Source: Mycolicibacterium goodii (GTDB taxonomy: Bacteria > Actinomycetota > Actinomycetes > Mycobacteriales > Mycobacteriaceae). From it: a stretch of 64,000 nucleotides of DNA. Shown piece by piece: positions 50,933 to 62,173 of the stretch (the stretch's first letter is position 1; each line of letters starts with the position of its first letter). A program made the position numbers and the translations under genes. The stretch is from NCBI RefSeq assembly GCF_022370755.2, contig NZ_CP092364.2:2728001-2792000 (forward strand), read 5' to 3'. The notes under the pieces were generated by a model. The model ran no database searches. It saw only the letters and a list, made by a program, of their open reading frames with translations, and was not told the DNA's origin.

Positions 50933-52144
50933 ATGGGACAGCCGACAGTGCTCATCAGCGGCGCGGGGGTGGCGGGCACCTCGCTTGCCCACTGGCTGGC
51001 CGACCTGGGCTACCGCGCCGTCGTCGTCGAGTCCGCATCCGCGCTCCGGCTGGGCGGTCAGACGGTCGACCTGCGCGGCGCGGGCCGCGATGTGGTCACC
51101 CGCATGGGGTTGCTGGACGAGATGCGCGGGCGGTCACTGGATCAACGCGGCGCCGCGTGGATCCGCAGCGACGGTAGGCGACGGGCCGAGATGCCGGTGG
51201 AGGCCTTCGGAGGCAACGGCATGGTCTCGGCGCTGGAGATCCTGCGCGGCGATCTCGTCGAGGTGCTCTACACCGCCACGAGAACACGCGCCGAGTACCG
51301 CTTCGGGACGCGGATCACCGAGCTCGACGAGTCAGGGGCCACGCTCAGCGACGGCACCCGCGTCGACGCCGACCTCGTCGTCGGCGCCGACGGACCGCAT
51401 TCCGCCGTCCGCAGAATGGTGTTCGGCCCCGAGGAACAGTTCGTGACGCTGTTGGGCGGCTACAACGCGTGGTTCACCGCGCCCGACACCGCAGGCCTCG
51501 ACGGGTGGTACCTGATGTATCAGGCGCCCGGCCTCAACGCGTCGATGCGGCCGTCACACGATCCGGCGCTGTGCAAGGCCGGGCTCGCGTTCCGATCGGG
51601 ACCGGTCGATTACGACCGGCGGGATCCCGCAACGCAGTTGGCGTTGCTCAACACGCATTTCGCCGGTGCGGGCTGGCGCTGCCCGGAGCTGCTGGCCGCC
51701 GCCGCCGAGGCCGACGACTTCTATTTCGACGCCTTCCTTCAGGTGCACATGCCGACGCTGTCGCGCGGACCGGTGACCCTCGTCGGCGACGCCGGCTACT
51801 GTGCGTCGCCCCTGTCGGGAATGGGGACCAGCCTGGCGCTCGTCGGCGCCTACGTGCTGGCCGGCGAACTCGGACCGGCGGACCTGTTCGCCCCGGCGAA
51901 GCTCGGTCTGGCGCTGGCCAGGTACGAGTCCACCATGCGACCGTACATCCAGCGTTGTCAGGAGCTACCGACCGGCATCGACGGGTATCTGCCGAAATCC
52001 GCGCTGGACATCACGATCTACACGCAGGTGATGAAGTGGATGCAGCGTCGGCCTTTTCGGTCGTTCGCCGAACGCAAATGGTTCACCACCGCCGACGCCA
52101 TCGAACTCCCCGACTATCCCGCGGTCTCCCGGCCCCAGCACTAG
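50933..52144 (+). CDS. FAD-dependent monooxygenase, PHBH/TetX-like
   Basis: A 403-residue class A flavoprotein hydroxylase. The FAD Rossmann motif is ISGAGVAGTSLAHWLADLG (about residues 7-25) ending in VVVESA, the DG motif is LVVGADGPHSAVRRMVFG, and the second FAD motif is TLVGDAGYCASPLSGMGTSLALVGAYVLA. These are the marks of the p-hydroxybenzoate hydroxylase and tetracycline/rifampicin monooxygenase group. The substrate is likely an aromatic or polyketide-like compound and cannot be predicted. The gene seems to be transcribed by itself and faces the small gene at 52151 in a convergent arrangement with only 6 nt between them. Confidence 0.9.
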   Translation: MGQPTVLISGAGVAGTSLAHWLADLGYRAVVVESASALRLGGQTVDLRGAGRDVVTRMGLLDEMRGRSLDQRGAAWIRSDGRRRAEMPVEAFGGNGMVSALEILRGDLVEVLYTATRTRAEYRFGTRITELDESGATLSDGTRVDADLVVGADGPHSAVRRMVFGPEEQFVTLLGGYNAWFTAPDTAGLDGWYLMYQAPGLNASMRPSHDPALCKAGLAFRSGPVDYDRRDPATQLALLNTHFAGAGWRCPELLAAAAEADDFYFDAFLQVHMPTLSRGPVTLVGDAGYCASPLSGMGTSLALVGAYVLAGELGPADLFAPAKLGLALARYESTMRPYIQRCQELPTGIDGYLPKSALDITIYTQVMKWMQRRPFRSFAERKWFTTADAIELPDYPAVSRPQH

Positions 52145-52150
52145 GGGCTC

Positions 52151-52375
52151 TCAGTTCGCGTCCGGGTCGAGGGCACCGGCGCGGTGTGCGGGCAGCGCCG
52201 CCGCAAGCTTCTCCTCCGCGATCCGGTAGAAGCCGTCGAGCGCTGATTCTTCGATGCTGAGATACTCACTCACGACGTCGCGAGCCACCCCGGCGTCGCG
52301 CAGCCGAAGCGCCAGCGAGTACGGAAGCGGCAACTCCCGCAGCGCCTGCTCTCTGGCCTCGCGGAGGTCGGTCAT
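52151..52375 (-). CDS. Small HTH-like protein, 74 residues
   Basis: A small, largely helical protein. The stretch LPLPYSLALRLRDAGVARDVVSEYLSIEESALDGFYRIAEEKL resembles, in spacing of Leu and Gly, the sigma-70 region 4 helix-turn-helix, but split here: YSLALRLRDAG then VVSEYLSIEESAL. I do not know an established function. No Shine-Dalgarno or -10 box precedes the ATG, and the gene lies 45 nt after the LuxR-type regulator gene on the same strand, so it is probably co-transcribed with it. It may be a DNA-binding or anti-regulator accessory protein; this is inference. Confidence 0.65.
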   Translation of the reverse strand: MTDLREAREQALRELPLPYSLALRLRDAGVARDVVSEYLSIEESALDGFYRIAEEKLAAALPAHRAGALDPDAN

Positions 52376-52420
52376 GGGAACAGGATGCGACCGGGCGCGC
52401 GACGCGGATCGAGTACCCGG

Positions 52421-55045
52421 TTACTCGAATCTGCGGTGCGGCCGCTTCACGAGCTCGATGAGCTCGGCGCGCGAGGCGGCCCCGGTCTTCGACATGGCGC
52501 GGTAAACATGCCCCTCCACGGTGCGCACCGACAGCCGCAGGCGTTGCGCCACGGCACGACTGGATGCCCCGGCCGCGAGCAGCGCGACGATCTCGCGTTC
52601 ACGGTCGGTCAGTGGCAGGTGTTCGAGACATGCCAGCAGCGCCGGCGTCGCTGCGCCGCCGCACCGGTCGGCGAGTCCCTCGGCGCGGTGCGCCTGACCG
52701 AGTGCCGAACCTCGCCGGTGTTTCCGGCGGTGCATGATCGAGGCGTGGGCGGCGGCGTCCGCGGCCGCGACCAGGTCGCCGATCCGCTCGAGTTCGCCCG
52801 ACACCCGGGCGAGCGCATCAGGGTCCTCACGTCGCAGCGCATGCGCGAAGGCGGCGGCCGCCCCGCAACGGGGACCGTCGACGTGGGCGGCGAGTTCGTG
52901 GAGCCGTTGCGCCCCGGCGGGATCACCGAACTGAGCCGCGGTCTGCAGGCACAGCACCTCGGCCGCCCACTGCCCGTTGTCGGCAGCCATCTGGGCCGCA
53001 GCGATCGCCATCTCGGCGGCCTGCGACACCGCGCCCTGCGCCGCCGCGACCCACGCGTGCGCCAGGGCGTGCTCGTAGTGCAGATACCGCCAACCGGGAT
53101 GGCGCCACCGGTCGAGGTCGGTCAACGTCGATTCGTCGCCCACGCCCCGCATGGCCAATGCGGTCGCACGCGGTAGCGAGAATCGGTATGCGAAGCCGTT
53201 GGTGTCCCCGGCCGCGCGCAGCAGATCCACCACGGGGCCCAGCTTTTCGGACGCCACGTCGAGGTGACCCGCGGCGAGCGCGACCCGTCCGGTCAAGGCG
53301 GTGCCGAACAGGTGCGCTGCACCGGGCAGGTCGACGGCGCAGGCGTTCTGGCGTTCGGCTTCCTGTTCGGCCCCAACGATGTCGCCGGCGAGCAGCAGCG
53401 CACCGATGTGCGCGTCGGCGATCACGAATCGCACATGCCCCGCGTCGTACGCGTGGTCGGCGATGCGGTAGCCGCGCTCTGCTGCGCGCACGGCGTCTGT
53501 GAGCCGTCCGGCATCGCCTGCCGAGACCGCCGCCGCCCACTCGGTCACCGCGCCGACCACCGCAGGAAGTGCCGCGGTGTCGAGTCGGTCGGCGGCGATC
53601 GCGGCCATGTCGGGTGCTCCGATGGCGGCGCCGAGGACCACGTCGAACGCATCGAGACACGGCCGCGCGTCCGCCGGTGTCACGGACGACACCGCGTCGA
53701 CGACCGACCTGGCGCCGTCGGGATCGGCCAACGCCCAGAGCCGATTGCACGCGCGTAGGAAGGCCAGGCGTGCACGCCCGGCGTCGGTCAGCTCCGAGAC
53801 GTTGACGGCGGCGAGCACCGCATCGGACTCCTCGCCGCGACTCAACCACGACAAGGCATGGGCCTGAACGAAATACGACTCGGGACCACCACCCGCGCGG
53901 ACGGCGGCCGCCGCGAGCCGCTCGGCCAGTACCAGGTCGGCGAGCCACACCGCGCCCTGTGCGGCACGGGTCAGCAGGTCCGGGTCGGCGGGTAGGTCCG
54001 ATTCGAGCGTCAGCGCCGCGCGTCGCACCACCACGCGCAGCTCGTCGCGGTCGTCGCCGCGGGCGAGTTCGGCGGCCACCAGACCGCGCAACCGCCGCAG
54101 CCGGGTTCCCGGGGCGCGGTTCCGACGGGTCTCGGCGTACAGCGGGTGTGCCGCACGCACCTCGACGCCGGTGTCGAGGTGGCCCAGCGTGATCAGACCG
54201 CGCCGCTCGGCCTCGTCCACCGCAGCCGGTTCGGTGATGCTGGTCAGCGTGCGAAGCGGCATCGGTTCTGCGACGGCCAGGACATCGATGACCTCGCTGA
54301 CCGCCGGGGGCAGGGCACCGATACGTTCCTCGATCAGCTCGACAAGTCCCGGCGGCAGTACCGGGTCTCCGGCCCAGCGCCAGTAGCCGTGTTGGCGGGT
54401 CAGACGCCCGTGTGCCACTTCCTGCTCGACGATGTTGCGTAGGTACAGCACATTGCCGCGCGTCAGGCGCCACAACCGCTGTGCGGCGTCGGGGTCGATC
54501 GGTCCGTCGAGCGCCGTCGTCAGCAGGTGCGTCGACTCGCCGCGGGACAGCGGTTGCAGGTCGAGACGTTCGAAGCCCGCTTCGGCCCACACATCCCGAA
54601 CGGCATCGGGCACCGTGCTGCCGTCGCGCACCGTCAGCAACAGCTTCGCCGCGCGCCTGCCGACGATTTGCCGCAGCACGAACGCCGACAGGTCATCGAG
54701 GTGGTGGGCGTCATCCACACCGATGACCGCGGGGCGGTCCGGGGTCGAGCCCACGGTCATCGCGTCGATGACCCGGCCGACGAGAGCGCCGGTGTCGGCA
54801 TCAGCGGTACCGACCCACCGCGCAAAGGCTCCCAGCGGCAACGCACCGGCCACCGATGTACCGACCACCCAACGGGTTTCACGCCCGGCCGACGCCATCG
54901 CGACTACCGCCTCGTGGGCGATGCGGCTCTTGCCGACCCCCGCGGCGCCGTGGATCACGATTCCCGCCCGATCGGCCGACGTCAGCGCGGCATCGATCAA
55001 CCGCGTTTCCTCAAGCCGCCCGGTCAGCGGCCAGGCGAGTCGCAC
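52421..55045 (-). CDS. Large AAA/LuxR-family transcriptional regulator
   Basis: An 874-residue STAND-type regulator of the LAL/MalT-like class. The N-terminal ATPase has Walker A GAAGVGKS at residues 33-40 and a Walker B-like AVIGVDDAHHLDDLSAFVL. The long helical middle part looks like TPR-like repeats. The C-terminal LuxR helix-turn-helix is LTDREREIVALLAAGASSRAVAQRLRLSVRTVEGHVYRA-type (residues about 805-860), intact. The GTG at 55045 has TAGTCT 6 nt upstream, so it is probably leaderless. It lies 59 nt after the flavoprotein gene of the accessory operon, in the same direction, and could respond to the same metabolite, but no direct link can be seen. Confidence 0.92.
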   Translation of the reverse strand: MRLAWPLTGRLEETRLIDAALTSADRAGIVIHGAAGVGKSRIAHEAVVAMASAGRETRWVVGTSVAGALPLGAFARWVGTADADTGALVGRVIDAMTVGSTPDRPAVIGVDDAHHLDDLSAFVLRQIVGRRAAKLLLTVRDGSTVPDAVRDVWAEAGFERLDLQPLSRGESTHLLTTALDGPIDPDAAQRLWRLTRGNVLYLRNIVEQEVAHGRLTRQHGYWRWAGDPVLPPGLVELIEERIGALPPAVSEVIDVLAVAEPMPLRTLTSITEPAAVDEAERRGLITLGHLDTGVEVRAAHPLYAETRRNRAPGTRLRRLRGLVAAELARGDDRDELRVVVRRAALTLESDLPADPDLLTRAAQGAVWLADLVLAERLAAAAVRAGGGPESYFVQAHALSWLSRGEESDAVLAAVNVSELTDAGRARLAFLRACNRLWALADPDGARSVVDAVSSVTPADARPCLDAFDVVLGAAIGAPDMAAIAADRLDTAALPAVVGAVTEWAAAVSAGDAGRLTDAVRAAERGYRIADHAYDAGHVRFVIADAHIGALLLAGDIVGAEQEAERQNACAVDLPGAAHLFGTALTGRVALAAGHLDVASEKLGPVVDLLRAAGDTNGFAYRFSLPRATALAMRGVGDESTLTDLDRWRHPGWRYLHYEHALAHAWVAAAQGAVSQAAEMAIAAAQMAADNGQWAAEVLCLQTAAQFGDPAGAQRLHELAAHVDGPRCGAAAAFAHALRREDPDALARVSGELERIGDLVAAADAAAHASIMHRRKHRRGSALGQAHRAEGLADRCGGAATPALLACLEHLPLTDREREIVALLAAGASSRAVAQRLRLSVRTVEGHVYRAMSKTGAASRAELIELVKRPHRRFE

Positions 55046-55104: not shown

Positions 55105-57813
55105 TCACCCCTTGCGCGTCAACGCCTGCCGGGCGTATGCGCGGACGTCGGCGTCGGAGTCCTGCAGCGCGCCGGTCAGGGCGTCGCGCGCCGCGGATTC
55201 CGTGTCCGCCCACCGGCTGAGGCTCAGCACGGCGGCCTTGCGGACGTCGAGATGCTCATCGGTCAGTGCGCGCGACAACGCAGGAACAGCAACCACCGCT
55301 TCGGCTCCGGCGAGCGCTCGTACCGCGCCCTGGCGGATCTGCCATGCCGATTCCGTCAGCGCCTTCTCGGCGCTCACCACGCCGTCGGCGTCGCACCCGA
55401 CGGCGCCGAGGGCCGTCAGTGCAGCGGCGCGCACCAACGGATCCGGATCCTCCAGGAGCGCATGCACGGCGTCCGTGCCGGTGCGCAGCGTCGCCAACCC
55501 GCCGAGCGCGGCGATGCGCACCTCGCGGTTGTCGTCGGTCGTGGCAGCCGCGACGCCGGTCGCGTCGTCGACGGACACCGATGCCCGCACCGCCTCGATA
55601 CGCACGCGGTGGTCGGGGTCGGTGAGCGCCGAACGGTACGCGACCGCGCTGCCGGCCCGCCGCGCACTCAGCACGTACACCGTGACGGCACGGACGGCGG
55701 GGTCGTCCGACGTCAACCGGATCGCGAACGCCTCGGGACGGGGCAGCACCTCGACGAGTTCACGCACCACGTCGGCCGTCTGCAGGCGCACCCCGGCATC
55801 CGCGTCGTCGAGCGCGGCGACCAGCGCATCCTGGTAACCGTCGGGCAGGTGCTCGCCGAGTGTCGCGATCGCGGTGCGGCGCACCCCCGGGTCGGGATCG
55901 GCGAGGAACTCGTCGAGGTCGGTCAGGGCGGGATCCTCGAGGGCCAGCACGGCCGCGATGCGCGGAGACGGCGGCCGGACCGGGGCGGCGTCGCGGATCC
56001 GGGAGCGTTCGGCCGTGGGTGCCCGCCCCACGTGCAGCTCGGGTTGGCCCACCTCGCTCACCGGATGTTCCGACGGCAGATGGTCGAGTTCCGGAACGGG
56101 CACGAGATATGGTGCGACCGGTCGTTTCACGAACCGCATCCGCCCTTCGTGGTCCTTGTGGAGGTTGAGGTGATAGCGCCACTGTTCGTCGTCGCGCTCG
56201 GGCAGATCGGCACGCTCGTGGTACAGGCCCCACCGTGATTCGGTCCGCGTCAGTGACGAGCGTGCCGCCATCTCCGCGCAGTCGCGGATGAAAGACACCT
56301 CCACCGCGCGCATCAGTTCGTGTGGTGTCCGTGCGCCGATCTCCTCGATCTCGGCGGCCATCCGTTCGAAGGTCTGCACCGCGATCGACAGCTTGGTCGC
56401 GGTCTTCGGCGGGGCCACATAGTCGTTGACGAAACGCCGCAGCTTGTATTCGACCTGCGGTTGTGGCGGACCGTCGGGGTTGCGCAGCGGGCGGTAGATC
56501 AGCTCGTGCGCCTCGATGATCTGATCCTCCGGAAGGTGCTGCGGCACAGGGACGCCGGAGAGGGTGGATGCGGCGTGCTGACCCGCGAGGTCGCCGTAGA
56601 CGAACGCGCCGATCATGTAGTTGTGGGGCACACACGCCAGGTCGCCGGCGGCGTACAGCCCGGGAACCGTGGTGCGGGCGTGCTCGTCGACCCACACCCC
56701 CGAAGCGGAATGACCTGAGCACAGCCCGATCTCGGAGATGTGCATCTCGATGTCATGGGTTCGGTAGTCGTGTCCGCGGTTGGCGTGGAACGTGCCACGC
56801 GTGGGCCGCTCCGTGGTGTGCAGGATGTTCTCGAGCGCCGTGATGGTCTCGTCGGGCAGATGGCTGACCTTCAGGTAGATCGGCCCCCGCGCCGATTCGA
56901 TCTCGCGTTTGACCTCGGCCATCATCTGGCCGGACCAGTAGTCGGAGTCGACGAACCGCTCTCCCAGCGCGTTGACCTGGTATCCCCCGAACGGATTGGC
57001 CACATACGCACAGGCGGGCCCGTTGTAGTCCTTGATCAACGGGTTGACCTGGAAGCACTCGATTCCGGAGAGTTCCGCGCCCGCGTGGTAGGCCATGGCG
57101 TAGCCGTCGCCGGCGTTGGTGGGGTTCTCGTAGGTGCCGTACAGATAACCCGAGGCGGGCAGACCGAGGCGCCCGCACGCGCCGGTCGACAAGATCACGG
57201 CTCGGGCGGCGACGACGACGAACTCACCGGTTCGGGTGTTGAACGCCGCGGCGCCGACCGCACGCCCGTTGTCGGTGAGCACACGCACCGGCATCAACCG
57301 GTTCTCGATGCGGATCTTCTCGCGCATCGACCGCTGCCGCAGCACGCGGTAGAGCGCCTTTTTGACGTCCTTGCCCTCTGGCATCGGCAACACGTACGAA
57401 CCGGACCGGTGCACCCGGCGCACCGCGTACTCACCGTGCTCGTCCTTCTCGAACTTGACGCCGTAACGCTCGAGCCGCTGCACCATGGCGAATCCGCGGG
57501 TCGCGGTCTGGTAGACGGTGCGCTGGTTGACGATTCCGTCGTTGGCGCGCGTGATCTCGGCGACGTAGTCCTCGGGTTCCGCCTTGCCGGGGATCACGGC
57601 GTTGTTGACGCCGTCCATGCCCATCGCGAGCGCACCCGAATGGCGCACATGGGCCTTCTCCAGAAGCAGCACCCGGGCACCGTTCTCGGCCGCGGTCAAC
57701 GCGGCCATGGTGCCCGCCGTGCCGCCACCGATCACGAGGACGTCGCAGTCCATGCGGACGGCGTCGGTGACCTGGGGTGCGGTGAACGGCGGCGACGGGA
57801 TCGATACGGTCAT
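55105..57813 (-). CDS. Fumarate-reductase/AprA-like flavoprotein fused to HEAT repeats
   Basis: A 902-residue fusion. Residues 1 to about 590 are an FAD-dependent oxidoreductase of the succinate dehydrogenase/fumarate reductase/adenylylsulfate reductase (AprA) superfamily: dinucleotide motif VIGGGTAGTMAAL (Gly 29-34), LLLEKAHVRHSGALAMG, and the late FAD block VPGLYAAGDLACVPHNYM. From about residue 600 to the end there are some nine HEAT-like repeats, each with a D-P-D/x-V-R-x-A-A pattern (for example DPDPLVRAAALTALGAVG). The ATG at 57813 overlaps the ATPase stop by 4 nt, so upstream extension is rejected. The ferredoxin of the same operon is the likely electron partner, as AprB is for AprA. 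The substrate is unknown. Confidence 0.88.
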   Translation of the reverse strand: MTVSIPSPPFTAPQVTDAVRMDCDVLVIGGGTAGTMAALTAAENGARVLLLEKAHVRHSGALAMGMDGVNNAVIPGKAEPEDYVAEITRANDGIVNQRTVYQTATRGFAMVQRLERYGVKFEKDEHGEYAVRRVHRSGSYVLPMPEGKDVKKALYRVLRQRSMREKIRIENRLMPVRVLTDNGRAVGAAAFNTRTGEFVVVAARAVILSTGACGRLGLPASGYLYGTYENPTNAGDGYAMAYHAGAELSGIECFQVNPLIKDYNGPACAYVANPFGGYQVNALGERFVDSDYWSGQMMAEVKREIESARGPIYLKVSHLPDETITALENILHTTERPTRGTFHANRGHDYRTHDIEMHISEIGLCSGHSASGVWVDEHARTTVPGLYAAGDLACVPHNYMIGAFVYGDLAGQHAASTLSGVPVPQHLPEDQIIEAHELIYRPLRNPDGPPQPQVEYKLRRFVNDYVAPPKTATKLSIAVQTFERMAAEIEEIGARTPHELMRAVEVSFIRDCAEMAARSSLTRTESRWGLYHERADLPERDDEQWRYHLNLHKDHEGRMRFVKRPVAPYLVPVPELDHLPSEHPVSEVGQPELHVGRAPTAERSRIRDAAPVRPPSPRIAAVLALEDPALTDLDEFLADPDPGVRRTAIATLGEHLPDGYQDALVAALDDADAGVRLQTADVVRELVEVLPRPEAFAIRLTSDDPAVRAVTVYVLSARRAGSAVAYRSALTDPDHRVRIEAVRASVSVDDATGVAAATTDDNREVRIAALGGLATLRTGTDAVHALLEDPDPLVRAAALTALGAVGCDADGVVSAEKALTESAWQIRQGAVRALAGAEAVVAVPALSRALTDEHLDVRKAAVLSLSRWADTESAARDALTGALQDSDADVRAYARQALTRKG

Positions 57814-58583
57814 GGTTGCTCCAGTGCGGCAATGACGTCGGCGCGCGGCGACGAACGATCGGGGTGGTCGGAACGCGGCAGCGGCACGTCGATGAGGGCC
57901 CGCAGCGGTTGGCCGGCCCGGCCGAGCACCGCGATGCGGTCCCCGAGTCTCAGCGCCTCGTCGACGTCGTGGGTGACGAACACGATCGTGGTGGGATGCG
58001 CGCGCCACGTGTCGATCAGCAGTCGTTGCATGGCCGCGCGGGTCTGAGAGTCGAGCGCGGCGAAGGGTTCGTCCATCATCACCGCACGCGGTGCGCCGGC
58101 CAGGCCGCGCGCCAACTGGACGCGTTGCCGCATCCCGCCGGACAGACTCTTGGGCAGGAAGTCGGCGAAACCCGACAGCCCGACCTCGTCGATCCAGCGG
58201 TCGGCCCGCGCCCGGCGGCCGGCCTTGGGCTCGCCCCGAAGTTGCAGCGCCAGTTCGATGTTGGATCGGACGGTGCGCCACGGCAGCAGCGCGCTGTCCT
58301 GGAATACCATGCCCCGGTCACGTGAGGTGGTGGTGACGGGGACCCCGTCGGCCAGCACCCGGCCCGTGTCGGGGCGGAGCAGGCCCGTCAGCGCACGCAG
58401 GATCGTGGACTTGCCGCATCCGGACGGGCCGGTGAGGACGAGGATCTCACCCGGACACACGGTCAGGCTCAGATCGTCGATCACGGGTGTGCCCGTGTAG
58501 GACAACCGGACGCCGTCGAGTTCGAGGCGCATACCCGCGGTTGTGGTCGCGGTGGTCGCCGGTGTCGTCTCTGTGATGCTCAT
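57810..58583 (-). CDS. ABC transporter ATP-binding protein, SsuB/TauB type
   Basis: A 257-residue ATPase of the nitrate/sulfonate/taurine importer class. Walker A is TGPSGCGKSTILRALTG (about residues 52-68), the signature LSGGMRQRVQLARGL, Walker B RAVMMDEPFAALDSQ and the switch FVTHDVDEALRLGDRIAVLG; all are intact. It overlaps both neighbours by 4 nt (permease upstream, flavoprotein downstream). With the permease and binding protein it forms a complete importer for a small, probably organic anion-like or sulfur/nitrogen-containing solute. Confidence 0.93.
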   Translation of the reverse strand: MSITETTPATTATTTAGMRLELDGVRLSYTGTPVIDDLSLTVCPGEILVLTGPSGCGKSTILRALTGLLRPDTGRVLADGVPVTTTSRDRGMVFQDSALLPWRTVRSNIELALQLRGEPKAGRRARADRWIDEVGLSGFADFLPKSLSGGMRQRVQLARGLAGAPRAVMMDEPFAALDSQTRAAMQRLLIDTWRAHPTTIVFVTHDVDEALRLGDRIAVLGRAGQPLRALIDVPLPRSDHPDRSSPRADVIAALEQP

Positions 58584-59452
58584 CGGATGTTGTCCTCACC
58601 GCGCGGCAGCCAGCGTGTTGCGCGGCGGCCGATCAGTTCCACCGCTGCCGCGGTCGTGAATCCGAGGGCACCGATCGTGATGATGCCGACGAACACGTCC
58701 GGGTAGTTGAGCACGGTGTAGGCCTGCCAGGTGCGGTAGCCGACGCCGAGGCGGCCGGAGATCATCTCGGCCGAGATCACGCAGATCCATGCCACGCCCA
58801 TTCCGACCGACAGACCGCCGAACAGTCCAGGCAGCACACCCGGCAGCACCACCTGGCGCAGGACGTCGAGGCGTCCCCCGCCGAGGGTGCGTACCGAGTC
58901 CTCCCAGATTGTCGGCAGTGCCCGGACCGCGTGGCGCACGCTGACCATGATCGGGAAGTACGCCGCGAGGAACGTGATGAACACAATTCCGGCCTCATCG
59001 GTCGGGAACAGCAGGATCGCGACGGGCACCATGGCGATCGCCGGGATGGGCCTGGCCAGCTCGGTGAGCGGGCCGAAGATGTCGGCGAAGAGCGCCGAGC
59101 GGCCCAGCAGGATGCCGGTGACGACGCCGAGTACCGCTGCCAGGCCGAATCCGGTGAGAATCCGGATCAGCGACTGCGCGAGGTCGAGCCAGTATTCCGG
59201 CGTGGCCAACCGGTGGCCCAGTGCGACCGCGATCTCGGTGACCGTCGGCAACGTGTCGAATCGCAGGCCCAGACGAAAGTCGTTGGCGGTCAACAGCTGC
59301 CACAGCGCGATCACGGCCAGCACCGAGGCGATGCGCACCAGCCGACGCGGCCACGGTGATCCGGTGCGGCGGGTTTCCGTCGTCGACTGCGCCACATCGG
59401 TGGTGACAGCCGGCGCGTCGGCGCGGCCGGGAGCGAGGTCGGCGGCGGTCAT
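58580..59452 (-). CDS. ABC transporter permease, SsuC/TauC type
   Basis: A 290-residue inner-membrane permease with about six helices. The N-terminal 35 residues are polar (cytoplasmic). The family loop that docks the ATPase reads VRTLGGGRLDVLRQVVLPGVLPGLFGGLSVGMG-like (positions about 195-225), the EAA motif. Upstream of it, FGPLTELARPIPAIAMVPVAILLF is the typical SsuC/TauC stretch. The ATG at 59452 overlaps the binding-protein stop by 4 nt, which excludes the upstream extension of the frame. Confidence 0.92.
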   Translation of the reverse strand: MTAADLAPGRADAPAVTTDVAQSTTETRRTGSPWPRRLVRIASVLAVIALWQLLTANDFRLGLRFDTLPTVTEIAVALGHRLATPEYWLDLAQSLIRILTGFGLAAVLGVVTGILLGRSALFADIFGPLTELARPIPAIAMVPVAILLFPTDEAGIVFITFLAAYFPIMVSVRHAVRALPTIWEDSVRTLGGGRLDVLRQVVLPGVLPGLFGGLSVGMGVAWICVISAEMISGRLGVGYRTWQAYTVLNYPDVFVGIITIGALGFTTAAAVELIGRRATRWLPRGEDNIR

Positions 59453-60879
59453 ATGACGCCCGCCAGCGCGCTGCGGTAGTCGACGACGGTGCTGCCCGGA
59501 TGCGCTGCCACGTACCGCTGGGCGCCCGCCTGGGTACCGAACGGAAGGTGGTCCGTCCCGGCCCGCCCCGGTTGGCGCACCCAGACGGCCTTGTCGGCGA
59601 ACCACCGGGTACCCAGTTCGGCGTCGGGCACGTAGGCCGCGCGAACCGATTCACCGCGAGCCTGAGCACCGCGGATGGCCTTGAGCAGGCAGTTCGGGGA
59701 TGACGCCGCGATGGTGGTGTCGGACCCGTCGAGCCACAGTTCACTCGCCGTCGCCGGATCGTCCACTGTCGCGTTGCACGCCTGGTCATGTCCGCTGAGC
59801 GCCGACGGGTTGCTGTTCGACCTCGACGCCGCGTCGTAGTCCTGCCCGCGTTCGGCGTACGCCTCACGCAGCGGCCCGTCGTTCACGAAGGTGTCGACAT
59901 CGAGGTCGGCAAAGGTGTCGATCGACTTGAGGTACGGGACATCACCTTTGAGCGCTTCGACGAGAGAGGGCTTGAGGGTGGGGTCGAACGACGTGCCTCC
60001 GGGACCGTTGTAGAGATAGACCACCTCCTGCGGGAGACCACTGCCCTCGGCGACGATGCGCGCGGCCTCCAACGGTTGGGCGTTGAGGAACTCGGTCGCG
60101 TCGAGTTGCGCCTGCAGGAACGCCTGGAGTACCTCGGGGTGCTGTTGGGCGTACGCGCGACGCACCACCACGCCGTGCAGCGTCGGGTAGTCGAGTTCGG
60201 CGCCGTCGTAGAGCAGTTTGGCCTTGCCCTGGTGGACCAGCAGTCCCGGCCACGCCACGAACTGTGAGAAAGCCTGTACTTGATCGGATTCCAAGGCAGA
60301 CGCGCCGACCTGGGGTTGTTGGTTGAGCACCTCGACGCCGGTTCTGGGGTCGATGCCCGCCTTGGTCAGCGCCTGTACGAGCATGCCGTGCCCGGCCGAT
60401 CCGACGCTCGCCGAGATCTTCTTGCCCGCCAGGTCGGCCAGGTTCTGTGCGGCCGAATCGGTAGGCGCCACAACCATGTTCAACGCGCCCCTGGGGTGGT
60501 ACCCGGTGACCGAGACCACCTCGGTGCGGGCGCGTTCGTTGGCCTGGGTCTTGGATCCGTTGATCAGCATCGGGTAGTCCCCCATCGACCCGATGTCGGT
60601 CTTCTCGGCCACCATCTGCGCCGTGATCGGCGCTCCGGTGTCGTAGTCCTGCCACGTCACGTTGTACCGGGTTCCGGTGTCGGCGGTGATGTCGGAGAGC
60701 CGACGTTCAAGAAATCCCTTGGCCCGCAGCAAGGTTCCGGCAGTTACGGTGTTGATGGTCTTCGACTGGTATCCGATGACCACGTCGACGGTGTCGGCGG
60801 TCCGGGTCGCCGAGTCCAGTGCGCAGCCGGCCGTGGCGAACACGAGACCAGCGGTCAGGGTGATCAGGGCTGTTTTCAC
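59449..60879 (-). CDS. ABC substrate-binding lipoprotein with NosL-like C-terminal region
   Basis: A 476-residue extracytoplasmic binding protein. From the GTG at 60879 (AGAGGT just upstream) it begins with a lipoprotein signal (KTALITLTAGLVFATAGC, Cys 19). Residues about 35-350 resemble SsuA/TauA/NMT1-type binding proteins (VVIGYQSKTINTVTAGTLL; DIGSMGDYPMLINGS). The last 90 residues are extra: AAYVPDAELGTRWFADKAVWV then HLPFGTQAGAQRYVAAHPG, a pattern similar to the NosL copper-accessory fold. Two Cys (in DQACNAT and SPNCLLK) precede it. Fusion of a binding protein with such a tail is uncommon. The 8-nt gap to the ferredoxin stop suggests co-translation. Confidence 0.86.
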   Translation of the reverse strand: MKTALITLTAGLVFATAGCALDSATRTADTVDVVIGYQSKTINTVTAGTLLRAKGFLERRLSDITADTGTRYNVTWQDYDTGAPITAQMVAEKTDIGSMGDYPMLINGSKTQANERARTEVVSVTGYHPRGALNMVVAPTDSAAQNLADLAGKKISASVGSAGHGMLVQALTKAGIDPRTGVEVLNQQPQVGASALESDQVQAFSQFVAWPGLLVHQGKAKLLYDGAELDYPTLHGVVVRRAYAQQHPEVLQAFLQAQLDATEFLNAQPLEAARIVAEGSGLPQEVVYLYNGPGGTSFDPTLKPSLVEALKGDVPYLKSIDTFADLDVDTFVNDGPLREAYAERGQDYDAASRSNSNPSALSGHDQACNATVDDPATASELWLDGSDTTIAASSPNCLLKAIRGAQARGESVRAAYVPDAELGTRWFADKAVWVRQPGRAGTDHLPFGTQAGAQRYVAAHPGSTVVDYRSALAGVI

Positions 60880-60887
60880 GTCCACCT

Positions 60888-61115
60888 CTAACGGATCAGA
60901 TAGGGCATGTTGACGGTCACCGCGCCGGTGGGACACCGCGCCGCGCAGGGCCCGCAGTACCAGCACTCGTCGACGTGCATGTAGGCCTTGCCGTTCTGTG
61001 GATTGATCGCCAGTGAATCGAGCGGACACACATCGACGCACAGCGTGCACCCGTCGATGCACAGCGATTCGTCGATCGTCACCGGCACATCGGCACGCTG
61101 ATTGACAAGTGTCAT
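60888..61115 (-). CDS. 2x[4Fe-4S] ferredoxin, AprB-like
   Basis: A 75-residue ferredoxin with two four-cysteine motifs, Cys 19-23-26-30 (CIDGCTLCVDVCP) and Cys 51-54-57-61 (CWYCGPCAARCP). The first spacing, C-x3-C rather than C-x2-C, and the tryptophan in the second motif resemble the beta subunit of adenylylsulfate reductase. It overlaps the GntR gene by 4 nt and lies 8 nt before the binding protein. With the flavoprotein at the other end of the operon it makes a plausible two-component redox pair; it could also pass electrons to an unlinked enzyme. Confidence 0.93.
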   Translation of the reverse strand: MTLVNQRADVPVTIDESLCIDGCTLCVDVCPLDSLAINPQNGKAYMHVDECWYCGPCAARCPTGAVTVNMPYLIR

Positions 61116-61870
61116 GTGTCTCTCCTGAAGAGGTTGCCGCGCATGGTGATCCGGTCACCACGCATCCGGATGTATTCGAGGTCGACGGGTCTGCCGTCGT
61201 CGAGGCTGGTGAGACGCTCGGCCATCAGCAACGCGGAGCCGTTGGGCACTTGCAGGGTGGCCGCCGAGTGCGGGTCGGCCGAGACGGCCTCCAACGCGAG
61301 CGTCGCACCGCCGAGGCGCTGTCCGCTGACCCGTTCGATCAGCGTGAAGATGTCGTTGGTCTCCAGGTCGTAACCGATGACCTGTTCGCCGATATCCGGC
61401 ACCAGGTAGGTCAGGTCGAGCGACAGCGGCAGGTCACCGAGGTAGCGGAGCCGCTCGACGAAGACGACCTCGGCCCCTGGTTCGAGGCCCAGCTTTCGCG
61501 CCACCGCAGGCGGGGCGGCGGGCCGGAGTGCGGCGCGCACCTCGTTGTGGACCTCGCCGTAGTCCTTGAAGGTTTCTTTCAGACCGACGAGCGCGTCGAG
61601 CCCGTGGTCGAACTTGCGGACGGCCACATGGGTGCCGACCTTGGTGCCGCGCTCGATCAGTCCTTCGTGCTTGAGCACGGCGAGCGCTTCACGAACGGTG
61701 TTGCGGGAGACGAAGAACTCGGCGGCCAGCTCGGTCTCCGACGGCAGACCCTGCTCGTATGCGCCTTCGTAGATCTGATGGCGCAGGACGTCGGCCACCT
61801 GGCGGGCCTGGTCGGCGCGAGGACGGCGGATCGGTGAGACGGCGGGGGTATCGGGCTGCGACACGCCCAT
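61112..61870 (-). CDS. GntR/HutC-family transcriptional regulator with UTRA domain
   Basis: The likely local regulator of the accessory operon, which it leads. The N-terminal winged helix (ADVLRHQIYEGAYEQGLPSETELAAEFFVSRNTVREALAVLKHEGLI-like, residues about 25-75) is followed by a UTRA effector domain (VERLRYLGDLPLSLDLTYL; EAVSADPHSAATLQVPNGSALLMAERL). Start choice is open: ATG at 61870 or GTG at 61873; but TACCGT at 61877-61872 is 7 nt before the in-frame GTG at 61864, so a leaderless start there (250 residues) is also plausible. It overlaps the ferredoxin gene by 4 nt. Autoregulation through an operator in the upstream 340 nt is expected for the family. Confidence 0.9.
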   Translation of the reverse strand: MGVSQPDTPAVSPIRRPRADQARQVADVLRHQIYEGAYEQGLPSETELAAEFFVSRNTVREALAVLKHEGLIERGTKVGTHVAVRKFDHGLDALVGLKETFKDYGEVHNEVRAALRPAAPPAVARKLGLEPGAEVVFVERLRYLGDLPLSLDLTYLVPDIGEQVIGYDLETNDIFTLIERVSGQRLGGATLALEAVSADPHSAATLQVPNGSALLMAERLTSLDDGRPVDLEYIRMRGDRITMRGNLFRRDT

Positions 61871-61871
61871 C

Positions 61872-61877
61872 ACGGTA
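61872..61877 (-). promoter_or_regulatory. Candidate -10 box (TACCGT) of the GntR-led operon
   Basis: TACCGT on the minus strand lies 7 nt before GTG 61864, in frame with the GntR gene. If used, the mRNA is leaderless and begins at that codon. Confidence 0.35.
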
Positions 61878-62173
61878 AATGCGGATTTCGTGCCCTTGTG
61901 CGCGGCGAGTTGAGCTCATCGGCGGGCCGTCGGATTGCGCCGCCCCGATGGTGCGCTCACCTGGTCGAACCGCCCGCAACCCCGGGCATTGCGCCACCTG
62001 GGTGGCGGCGAGAAATTTTCAATCGGGCTGAGAATAAATGTCCGCCGACACGCACGGCGGTGAGCGGGATCCTCACAGCTGCGACAAAATCGTGGCCCGG
62101 CCGCAGGATCGGGCGACGGTGCGCATGGTCAGAATGGGGCGAAAACGGTTGTGAGGCATCGCCGCCGACGCGA
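61878..62173. other. Regulatory gap between nusB and the GntR-led operon
   Basis: About 300 nt without a convincing gene. It contains an AT-rich patch (about 62011-62039, with TATTCT on the minus strand), a 16-bp palindrome at 61992-62007 and a 5-bp hairpin (GCCCG/CGGGC, 61972-61987). A 136-codon frame on the plus strand runs into nusB antisense and has no coding features. Confidence 0.5.
61992..62007. promoter_or_regulatory. Palindrome CGCCACC-TG-GGTGGCG, possible operator
   Basis: Two perfect 7-nt arms around TG, about 120 nt upstream of the GntR gene and just beside an AT-rich patch with a possible -10 (TATTCT). It is a candidate binding site for the encoded GntR regulator. Confidence 0.35.

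Follow-up and report, generated by a model that had tools for sequence, protein, structure and literature searches.

What compound is imported, and what is done to it, by an operon that joins an SsuABC-type importer to a flavoprotein-ferredoxin pair? The operon lies in the window analyzed here, a 64-kb stretch of the single 6.74-Mb contig that makes up the Mycolicibacterium goodii genome. It is real, conserved and coherent: six genes, all on the minus strand, encode a GntR/UTRA regulator, a ferredoxin, a binding lipoprotein, an ATP-binding cassette (ABC) permease, an ABC ATPase and a flavoprotein. Four-nucleotide overlaps occur at the GntR/ferredoxin, binding protein/permease, permease/ATPase and ATPase/flavoprotein junctions, and an 8-nt gap separates the ferredoxin gene from the binding protein gene. 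The first-pass annotation, made from the letters alone, had described this layout; all coordinates and junctions were reproduced, and Pfam confirms each family. Additional to that annotation are HEAT repeats, a NosL-fold domain, a sister operon and a shared upstream element. Our preferred answer, to which we give a probability of roughly 0.4, is that the operon is a sulfur-scavenging module that would import a sulfo-compound, most likely a sulfate ester, and release sulfite from it reductively. The module and its sulfur context are supported by the computations described below, and the substrate and the reaction on it are the parts that we infer.

An organosulfur substrate is favored because the host carries a sister operon with a sulfatase. 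This second transporter of the same family, at 4.63 Mb (L176), lacks the flavoprotein and ferredoxin and is accompanied by a formylglycine-generating enzyme (FGE), a GntR/UTRA regulator, a sulfatase with the motif C-T-P-T-R, an extra GyrB and a SulP permease. Compared with such formylglycine arylsulfatase and FGE operons, the window operon has flavoprotein, ferredoxin and HEAT repeats in place of sulfatase and FGE, and none of its six genes matched sulfatase PF00884 or FGE in Pfam. The whole host genome holds only 3 FGE and 6 sulfatase matches. The earlier guess of an organosulfur or related substrate, which had been drawn from the transporter class, is thus strengthened. Loci like L176 were found in four other genomes (L177-L180), on the Gordonia plasmid pCP113 (L145) and, without GyrB, on a Paraburkholderia plasmid (L121); FGE was not found in L178 or in the adjoining stretch L193.

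We then counted sulfatase, FGE and SulP in 121 loci holding the flavoprotein or the binding protein, of which 112 have the flavoprotein and 9 do not. Counts were made by tblastn with queries from the L176 and L121 proteins (with Pfam for L176, L121 and L145) and cover flanks of at most about 10 kb that are frequently cut; 80 of the 112 flavoprotein loci had been fetched via the flavoprotein itself, and some of the loci may stand for one species twice. The flavoprotein-less loci contain a sulfatase in 7 cases, FGE in 6 and SulP in 7, with SulP present in 7/7 sulfatase loci, and 0/112 flavoprotein loci match any of the three. The two flavoprotein-less loci without sulfatase are L188 and L120, and in L120 the binding protein gene adjoins a transposase gene. 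In a tree of the binding proteins, sulfatase loci occupy two strongly supported, separate places among flavoprotein loci: L121 falls beside Variovorax L136, and the six actinobacterial sulfatase loci are nested in a group that also holds flavoprotein loci L185 and L189-L191. The enzyme behind the transporter has therefore been exchanged at least twice. Since the two operon types have one transporter family, related regulators and one upstream element, the flavoprotein and ferredoxin most likely serve the need that the sulfatase serves, namely obtaining sulfur from a sulfo-compound. A further gyrB match is present in 6/6 actinobacterial sulfatase loci (L176, L145, L177-L180) and in 0/112 flavoprotein loci; in L176 the extra gyrB (L176:10095-12014) scores above the NCBIfam gyrB cut-off. 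Its presence may hint that gyrase is met by the imported compound or its product.

The regulators of the two operons are related. Among 24 genome matches, self included, the closest host paralog of the window GntR protein is the GntR protein of the sulfatase operon (47%, 174 bits vs 74 for the next). The element GGTGGCGYAAY was first spotted by eye and then counted, so the counts were not made blind, nor are they independent, given that the loci are related. Within 340 nt around or upstream of the GntR match, it occurs in 59/95 flavoprotein loci, the window included (1.1 sites expected from the locus background), and in 5/7 sulfatase loci (0.08 expected). Across 94 loci totaling 1.66 Mb, 59 copies lie upstream of GntR and 9 elsewhere; all 68 counted copies are on the coding strand, some of them from overlapping stretches of one genome. 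When the first two bases are relaxed to G/A, the element precedes GntR in 6/6 actinobacterial sulfatase loci, where additional copies stand before the binding protein (L176, L177, L178, L180) or FGE (L145). L121 has no element before GntR, and stray copies occur in L121, L145 and L176. The window copy is the sole one in 64 kb, yet 15 of 100 shuffles also contain one. The element is missing from the host's 12-kb CysH/sulfite-reductase region and from the region of another host FGE/sulfatase pair. No perfect dyad common to both operon types was found.

We next considered the flavoprotein. It is a clear member of the NCBIfam equivalog NF010374 (PRK13800; 1710.9 bits vs a cut-off of 1196, residues 12-899 of 902), and its part binding flavin adenine dinucleotide (FAD) exceeds the cut-off of NF006131 (PRK08275; 892 vs 587 bits). 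Both families are named only 'fumarate reductase/succinate dehydrogenase flavoprotein subunit', a superfamily-level name without a substrate, which leaves the protein outside any characterized subfamily of known substrate. The first-pass annotation had called the pair AprBA-like, that is, like adenylylsulfate (APS) reductase, from the HVRHSGALAMG stretch of the flavoprotein and from the ferredoxin motifs C-x3-C-x2-C-x3-CP and C-W-x-C-x2-C-x3-CP, with Trp after the first Cys of the second; all of these are present as claimed. As a statement of relationship, the label holds. Among solved structures, the closest is the alpha subunit of the Methanothermococcus reductase for 3'-phosphoadenylylsulfate (PAPS), MtPAPSR, followed by AprA of APS reductases, and the 14 matches of a ferredoxin search include the beta subunits of MtPAPSR and of a dissimilatory APS reductase. 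A midpoint-rooted tree of 31 rows, from which two of eight reference rows had dropped out, contained 25 family members from Actinobacteria, alpha-, beta- and gammaproteobacteria, Acidithiobacillia and cyanobacteria. A branch with full support separates the members from all other rows. MtPAPSR pairs with the APS reductase AfAPSR on the members' side of the root, and four other host FAD proteins lie on the far side, with long reference branches throughout. A distant relative in a 1.8 Mb genome of the phylum (L134, G288:C65:7002-8684) scored 366 bits against the 587-bit cut-off and was dropped from the tree.

As a statement of function, the AprBA label is doubtful. Since the equivalent of AfAPSR Arg265, which we take to be a substrate-binding residue, is Leu in 25/25 members, identity as an APS or PAPS reductase is unlikely. 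In the same alignment, where the AfAPSR row consists of two segments and its positions 274-278 did not align and were left out, Asn and His are retained in 25/25 members at the positions equivalent to AfAPSR Asn74 and the MtPAPSR GGH histidine, respectively, and the equivalent of Gln145, a numbering that agrees with PMC10322725, is Val in all 25. Scores for AprA models fall below cut-off (TIGR02061, 140 of 641.75 bits; NF005331, 278 of 557 bits). The operon also adjoins an importer and has no ATP sulfurylase or APS kinase among its genes, and a CysH-type gene exists elsewhere in the host: one PF01507 (CysH/CysD-type) and one PF01077 (sulfite/nitrite reductase) gene lie side by side at 1.39 Mb, with no match to either inside the window, which bears out the earlier remark that no sulfate-activation or sulfite-reductase gene is near. 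We therefore regard a true assimilatory APS or PAPS reductase as highly improbable, even with a PAPS reductase as closest solved structure. From its sequence, the flavoprotein is best described as an APS reductase relative whose substrate site has changed, and probably not as an APS reductase.

Loss of the Arg265 equivalent would fit an enzyme resembling FrdA or AspO that oxidizes or reduces the organic part of a sulfated or anionic compound and releases no sulfite, and most NCBIfam superfamily matches are dehydrogenases or fumarate reductases. Against this explanation stand the grouping of the flavoprotein with two APS/PAPS reductases, the lack of a membrane anchor or quinone subunit among the six genes (Pfam), and the finding that sulfatase and flavoprotein never share a locus among the 121 examined. 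We consider it unlikely. Fumarate reductase itself was rejected, as scores for the fumarate reductase/succinate dehydrogenase models are far below their cut-offs (TIGR01812, 159 of 567 bits; TIGR01816, 132.5 of 727 bits).

Conservation of the gene set indicates that importer and redox pair form one evolutionary module, as the first-pass annotation had assumed. A search of genome contigs with the flavoprotein kept 80 loci, and all six genes are present in 74; the remainder comprises four loci at contig ends (L039, L047, L058 and L065) and two that differ (L059 and L079). The family is patchy, with NF006131 above cut-off in 12/396 genomes from the phylum and 46/394 from class Actinomycetes. In the 394 Actinomycetes genomes (apparently the same draw for the binding protein and flavoprotein searches), the NosL-fused binding protein was found in 48 and the flavoprotein in 46, and the two lie on one contig within about 5 kb in 46/46 flavoprotein genomes. 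In plasmid records, the flavoprotein is present in 39 of 41 that have the binding protein at ≥80% coverage, which are 39 of 51 flavoprotein records. The transporter and redox genes were thus not independent elsewhere. The module is found in Actinobacteria, alpha-, beta- and gammaproteobacteria, Acidithiobacillus and cyanobacteria, with example loci in Cupriavidus, Acinetobacter, Aquabacterium, Mesorhizobium, Methylobacterium, Methylocystis, Leptolyngbya and Pseudanabaena. HEAT repeats are encoded by a gene of their own in the annotated proteobacterial and cyanobacterial loci inspected (L109, L110, L112, L114, L115 and others), and in the actinobacterial variant L185 a HEAT gene, recognized by eye, lies between flavoprotein and ferredoxin.

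Flanking open reading frames (ORFs) were clustered for 61 flavoprotein loci and read against annotation by eye, without Pfam. The clusters were seemingly antisense frames, plus two fitting a Crp/Fnr regulator in 8 alphaproteobacterial loci and sporadic ones fitting LLM monooxygenases or sulfonate binding proteins. No additional enzyme was seen to recur next to the loci. DUF971 was matched in 13 and Mrp/NBP35 in 6 of the 112 flavoprotein loci.

The binding protein scores 126 bits against SsuA_fam TIGR01728, below the cut-off of 163.5, and 53.2 bits against the broader Pfam family NMT1, above the cut-off of 20.5. Its C-terminal domain, as judged from a structure model and fold search, has NosL as nearest fold, then MerB; Pfam NosL reaches it only below threshold. 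Together with matches to NCBIfam SaoA, SaoP and SaoX, these folds could point to a copper or organometal system. The Sao scores are far below their cut-offs (SaoA, 174 bits of 360; SaoP, 119 of 295; SaoX, 31 of 300). Across 27 rows no Met or Cys of the domain is invariant, and the one His that is invariant there is not kept in proteobacterial rows. Cys368 and Cys397 are both present in 15 rows and both absent in 12, never singly, as in a disulfide, which weakens the case for a metal. A metal or organometal role is accordingly very unlikely in our view.

How might the sulfur-scavenging module work? We propose that a sulfo-compound, with a sulfate ester as the likeliest kind, would enter the cell through the SsuABC-type importer and its NosL-fold binding protein. 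The flavoprotein as alpha subunit and the ferredoxin as beta subunit, scaffolded by the HEAT part, would form a soluble complex like APS reductase, in which electrons would enter the ferredoxin clusters and pass to FAD. Attack of reduced FAD on the sulfo-sulfur would then expel the alcohol and free sulfite for assimilation. For APS/PAPS reductases, it is proposed in PMC10322725 that FAD N5 attacks the sulfo sulfur and that sulfite is released. The host's sulfite/nitrite-reductase-type gene, next to the CysH-type gene, could use the sulfite product. FdxA and ferredoxin-NADP reductase genes beside one flavoprotein locus fit a supply of electrons from NADPH, a TauE/SafE (sulfite-exporter-type) gene lies beside two loci, and sulfonate genes beside others also speak for the module. 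The GntR/UTRA protein may sense the compound or its product and act at GGTGGCGYAAY.

Put more narrowly and more tentatively, the flavoprotein-ferredoxin-HEAT complex may be a reductive sulfatase that converts sulfate esters to alcohol and sulfite and that has traded places with hydrolytic sulfatases behind a shared transporter family and, in Actinobacteria, a shared control element. Three sulfatase classes are distinguished in PMC3920027, namely aryl sulfatases, Fe(II)/2-oxoglutarate-dependent oxidative sulfatases and alkyl sulfatases. A reductive sulfatase, if real, would be a new enzyme class and a fourth mechanistic one.

Several observations weigh against release of sulfite from a sulfate ester. 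An identical FAD-sulfite mechanism is not assured because, besides Arg265, the equivalents of AfAPSR Arg260 (aromatic in 25/25 members) and Trp234 (Tyr in 25/25) are changed. Reduction of an ordinary sulfate ester would require about -0.39 V by our own estimate, which is demanding for an aerobe. Three genomes (G000, G380 and G109) carry both types of operon, and a fourth, G673, has a transporter of each kind. Given this coexistence and an identity of only about 50% between the two kinds of binding protein, their substrates probably differ. The flavoprotein-less transporter locus L188 has no sulfatase, and its neighbors look by eye like sugar genes. The strict element is missing in 36/95 flavoprotein loci and from every proteobacterial locus with a GntR match. 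Among flavoprotein plasmid records, 12/51 have no binding protein match with at least 80% coverage, and TauE is found in only 2/112 flavoprotein loci, with queries taken from those two. Sulfonate genes (ssuD, tauABC, LLM monooxygenase or sulfonate transporter genes) flank several loci, which makes a sulfonate a candidate substrate.

If the substrate were a sulfonate (C-SO3-), the same module would contain a reductive desulfonase releasing sulfite. Besides these flanking genes, the SsuA/TauA/SsuC-type scores of the transporter favor such an enzyme, and reductive C-S cleavage should, by our own estimate, be easier than reduction of a sulfate ester. The sulfatase and FGE of the sister operon act on sulfate esters, and for this reason we regard a desulfonase as rather unlikely.

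The module was compared with the closest known systems. With AprBA and MtPAPSR (PDB 2FJA, 8A8O), it shares an FAD alpha subunit of the same branch, a beta subunit with two [4Fe-4S] clusters and the Asn74 and GGH His equivalents; it differs in the Arg265 to Leu change, the HEAT partner, the link to an importer and the sub-cut-off AprA scores. Its importer has the binding protein, permease and ATPase classes of SsuABC, TauABC and AtsRBC, the last of which we take to be a comparable organosulfur importer, but carries the NosL-fold domain and is under GntR/UTRA control, and the matches listed are below cut-offs. The C-terminal domain of the binding protein shares its fold with NosL of the NosDFYL complex, and unlike NosL it is fused to a binding protein and has no invariant Met or Cys; it is an occurrence of this fold outside the NosDFYL setting. 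The oxidative alkylsulfatases AtsK and Rv3406 offer further comparison (PMC3920027, PMC3675115). Among the matches listed by a literature search, largely of journals outside subscription, no title or abstract opening was about this operon.

The flavoprotein family occurs in several phyla yet carries only a superfamily name, and the shared element and exchanged enzyme now give this orphan operon a likely substrate class. Sulfate esters and sulfonates are the major organic sulfur forms in soil, according to PMC4267179. Reductive sulfite release, if true, would mean that aerobic scavenging can draw on the chemistry of APS reductase while being spared the ATP that activating sulfate consumes. The coordinates of the operon are given in Table 1.

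Table 1. Features of the operon, with positions in the 64-kb window and the basis of each assignment.
Feature	Position	Strand	Basis
GntR/UTRA regulator	61112-61870	-	Pfam GntR and UTRA; alternative GTG start at 61873
2x[4Fe-4S] ferredoxin, beta-subunit-like, 75 aa	60888-61115	-	Pfam 4Fe-4S dicluster; motifs
SsuA/NMT1-type binding lipoprotein with C-terminal NosL-fold domain, 476 aa	59449-60879	-	Pfam NMT1; structure model and fold search
NosL-fold domain of the binding protein, residues about 345-476	59452-59847	-	Structure model and fold search
ABC permease, SsuC/TauC/NtrB type	58580-59452	-	Pfam BPD permease; NCBIfam
ABC ATPase, TauB/SsuB/NtrCD type	57810-58583	-	Pfam; NCBIfam
FAD flavoprotein, FrdA/AprA superfamily, fused to HEAT repeats, 902 aa	55105-57813	-	NF010374, NF006131; Pfam FAD_binding_2, Succ_DH_flav_C, HEAT_2
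HEAT-repeat part of the flavoprotein fusion, approximate limits	55108-56031	-	Pfam HEAT_2, four stretches
Candidate operator/promoter element GGTGGCGCAAT, upstream of the GntR gene	61988-61998	-	GGTGGCGYAAY match

Directly downstream of the operon (window 50933-55045) lies an 874 aa ORF that resembles a LuxR-type ATP-binding regulator, and farther on an ORF looks by eye like an FAD monooxygenase. Elsewhere, the surroundings of the module vary. In seven loci on alphaproteobacterial plasmids, mostly from rhizobia (L109, L117, L118, L137-L139, L143), an annotated Crp/Fnr-type regulator lies near the module and a GntR match is absent. In the Nostoc edaphicum plasmid pNe_5 (L111:8899-15054), HAD hydrolases, a methyltransferase, a GNAT protein and a VOC protein lie between flavoprotein and ferredoxin, unlike in the other annotated loci inspected. 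Parts of the module stand beside transposase or recombinase genes on the Acidithiobacillus caldus plasmids L135 and L120, and L135 also encodes FdxA and a 1153 aa Pyr_redox_2 protein. Two cyanobacterial loci (L114:13283-14485 and L115:12323-13306) encode a LysR regulator with a domain like a solute-binding protein that matches the binding proteins of the module at 203 and 181 bits, respectively; the L114 protein has Pfam LysR and NMT1 matches. In these proteins, the transporter domain has perhaps been reused as a cytosolic sensor.

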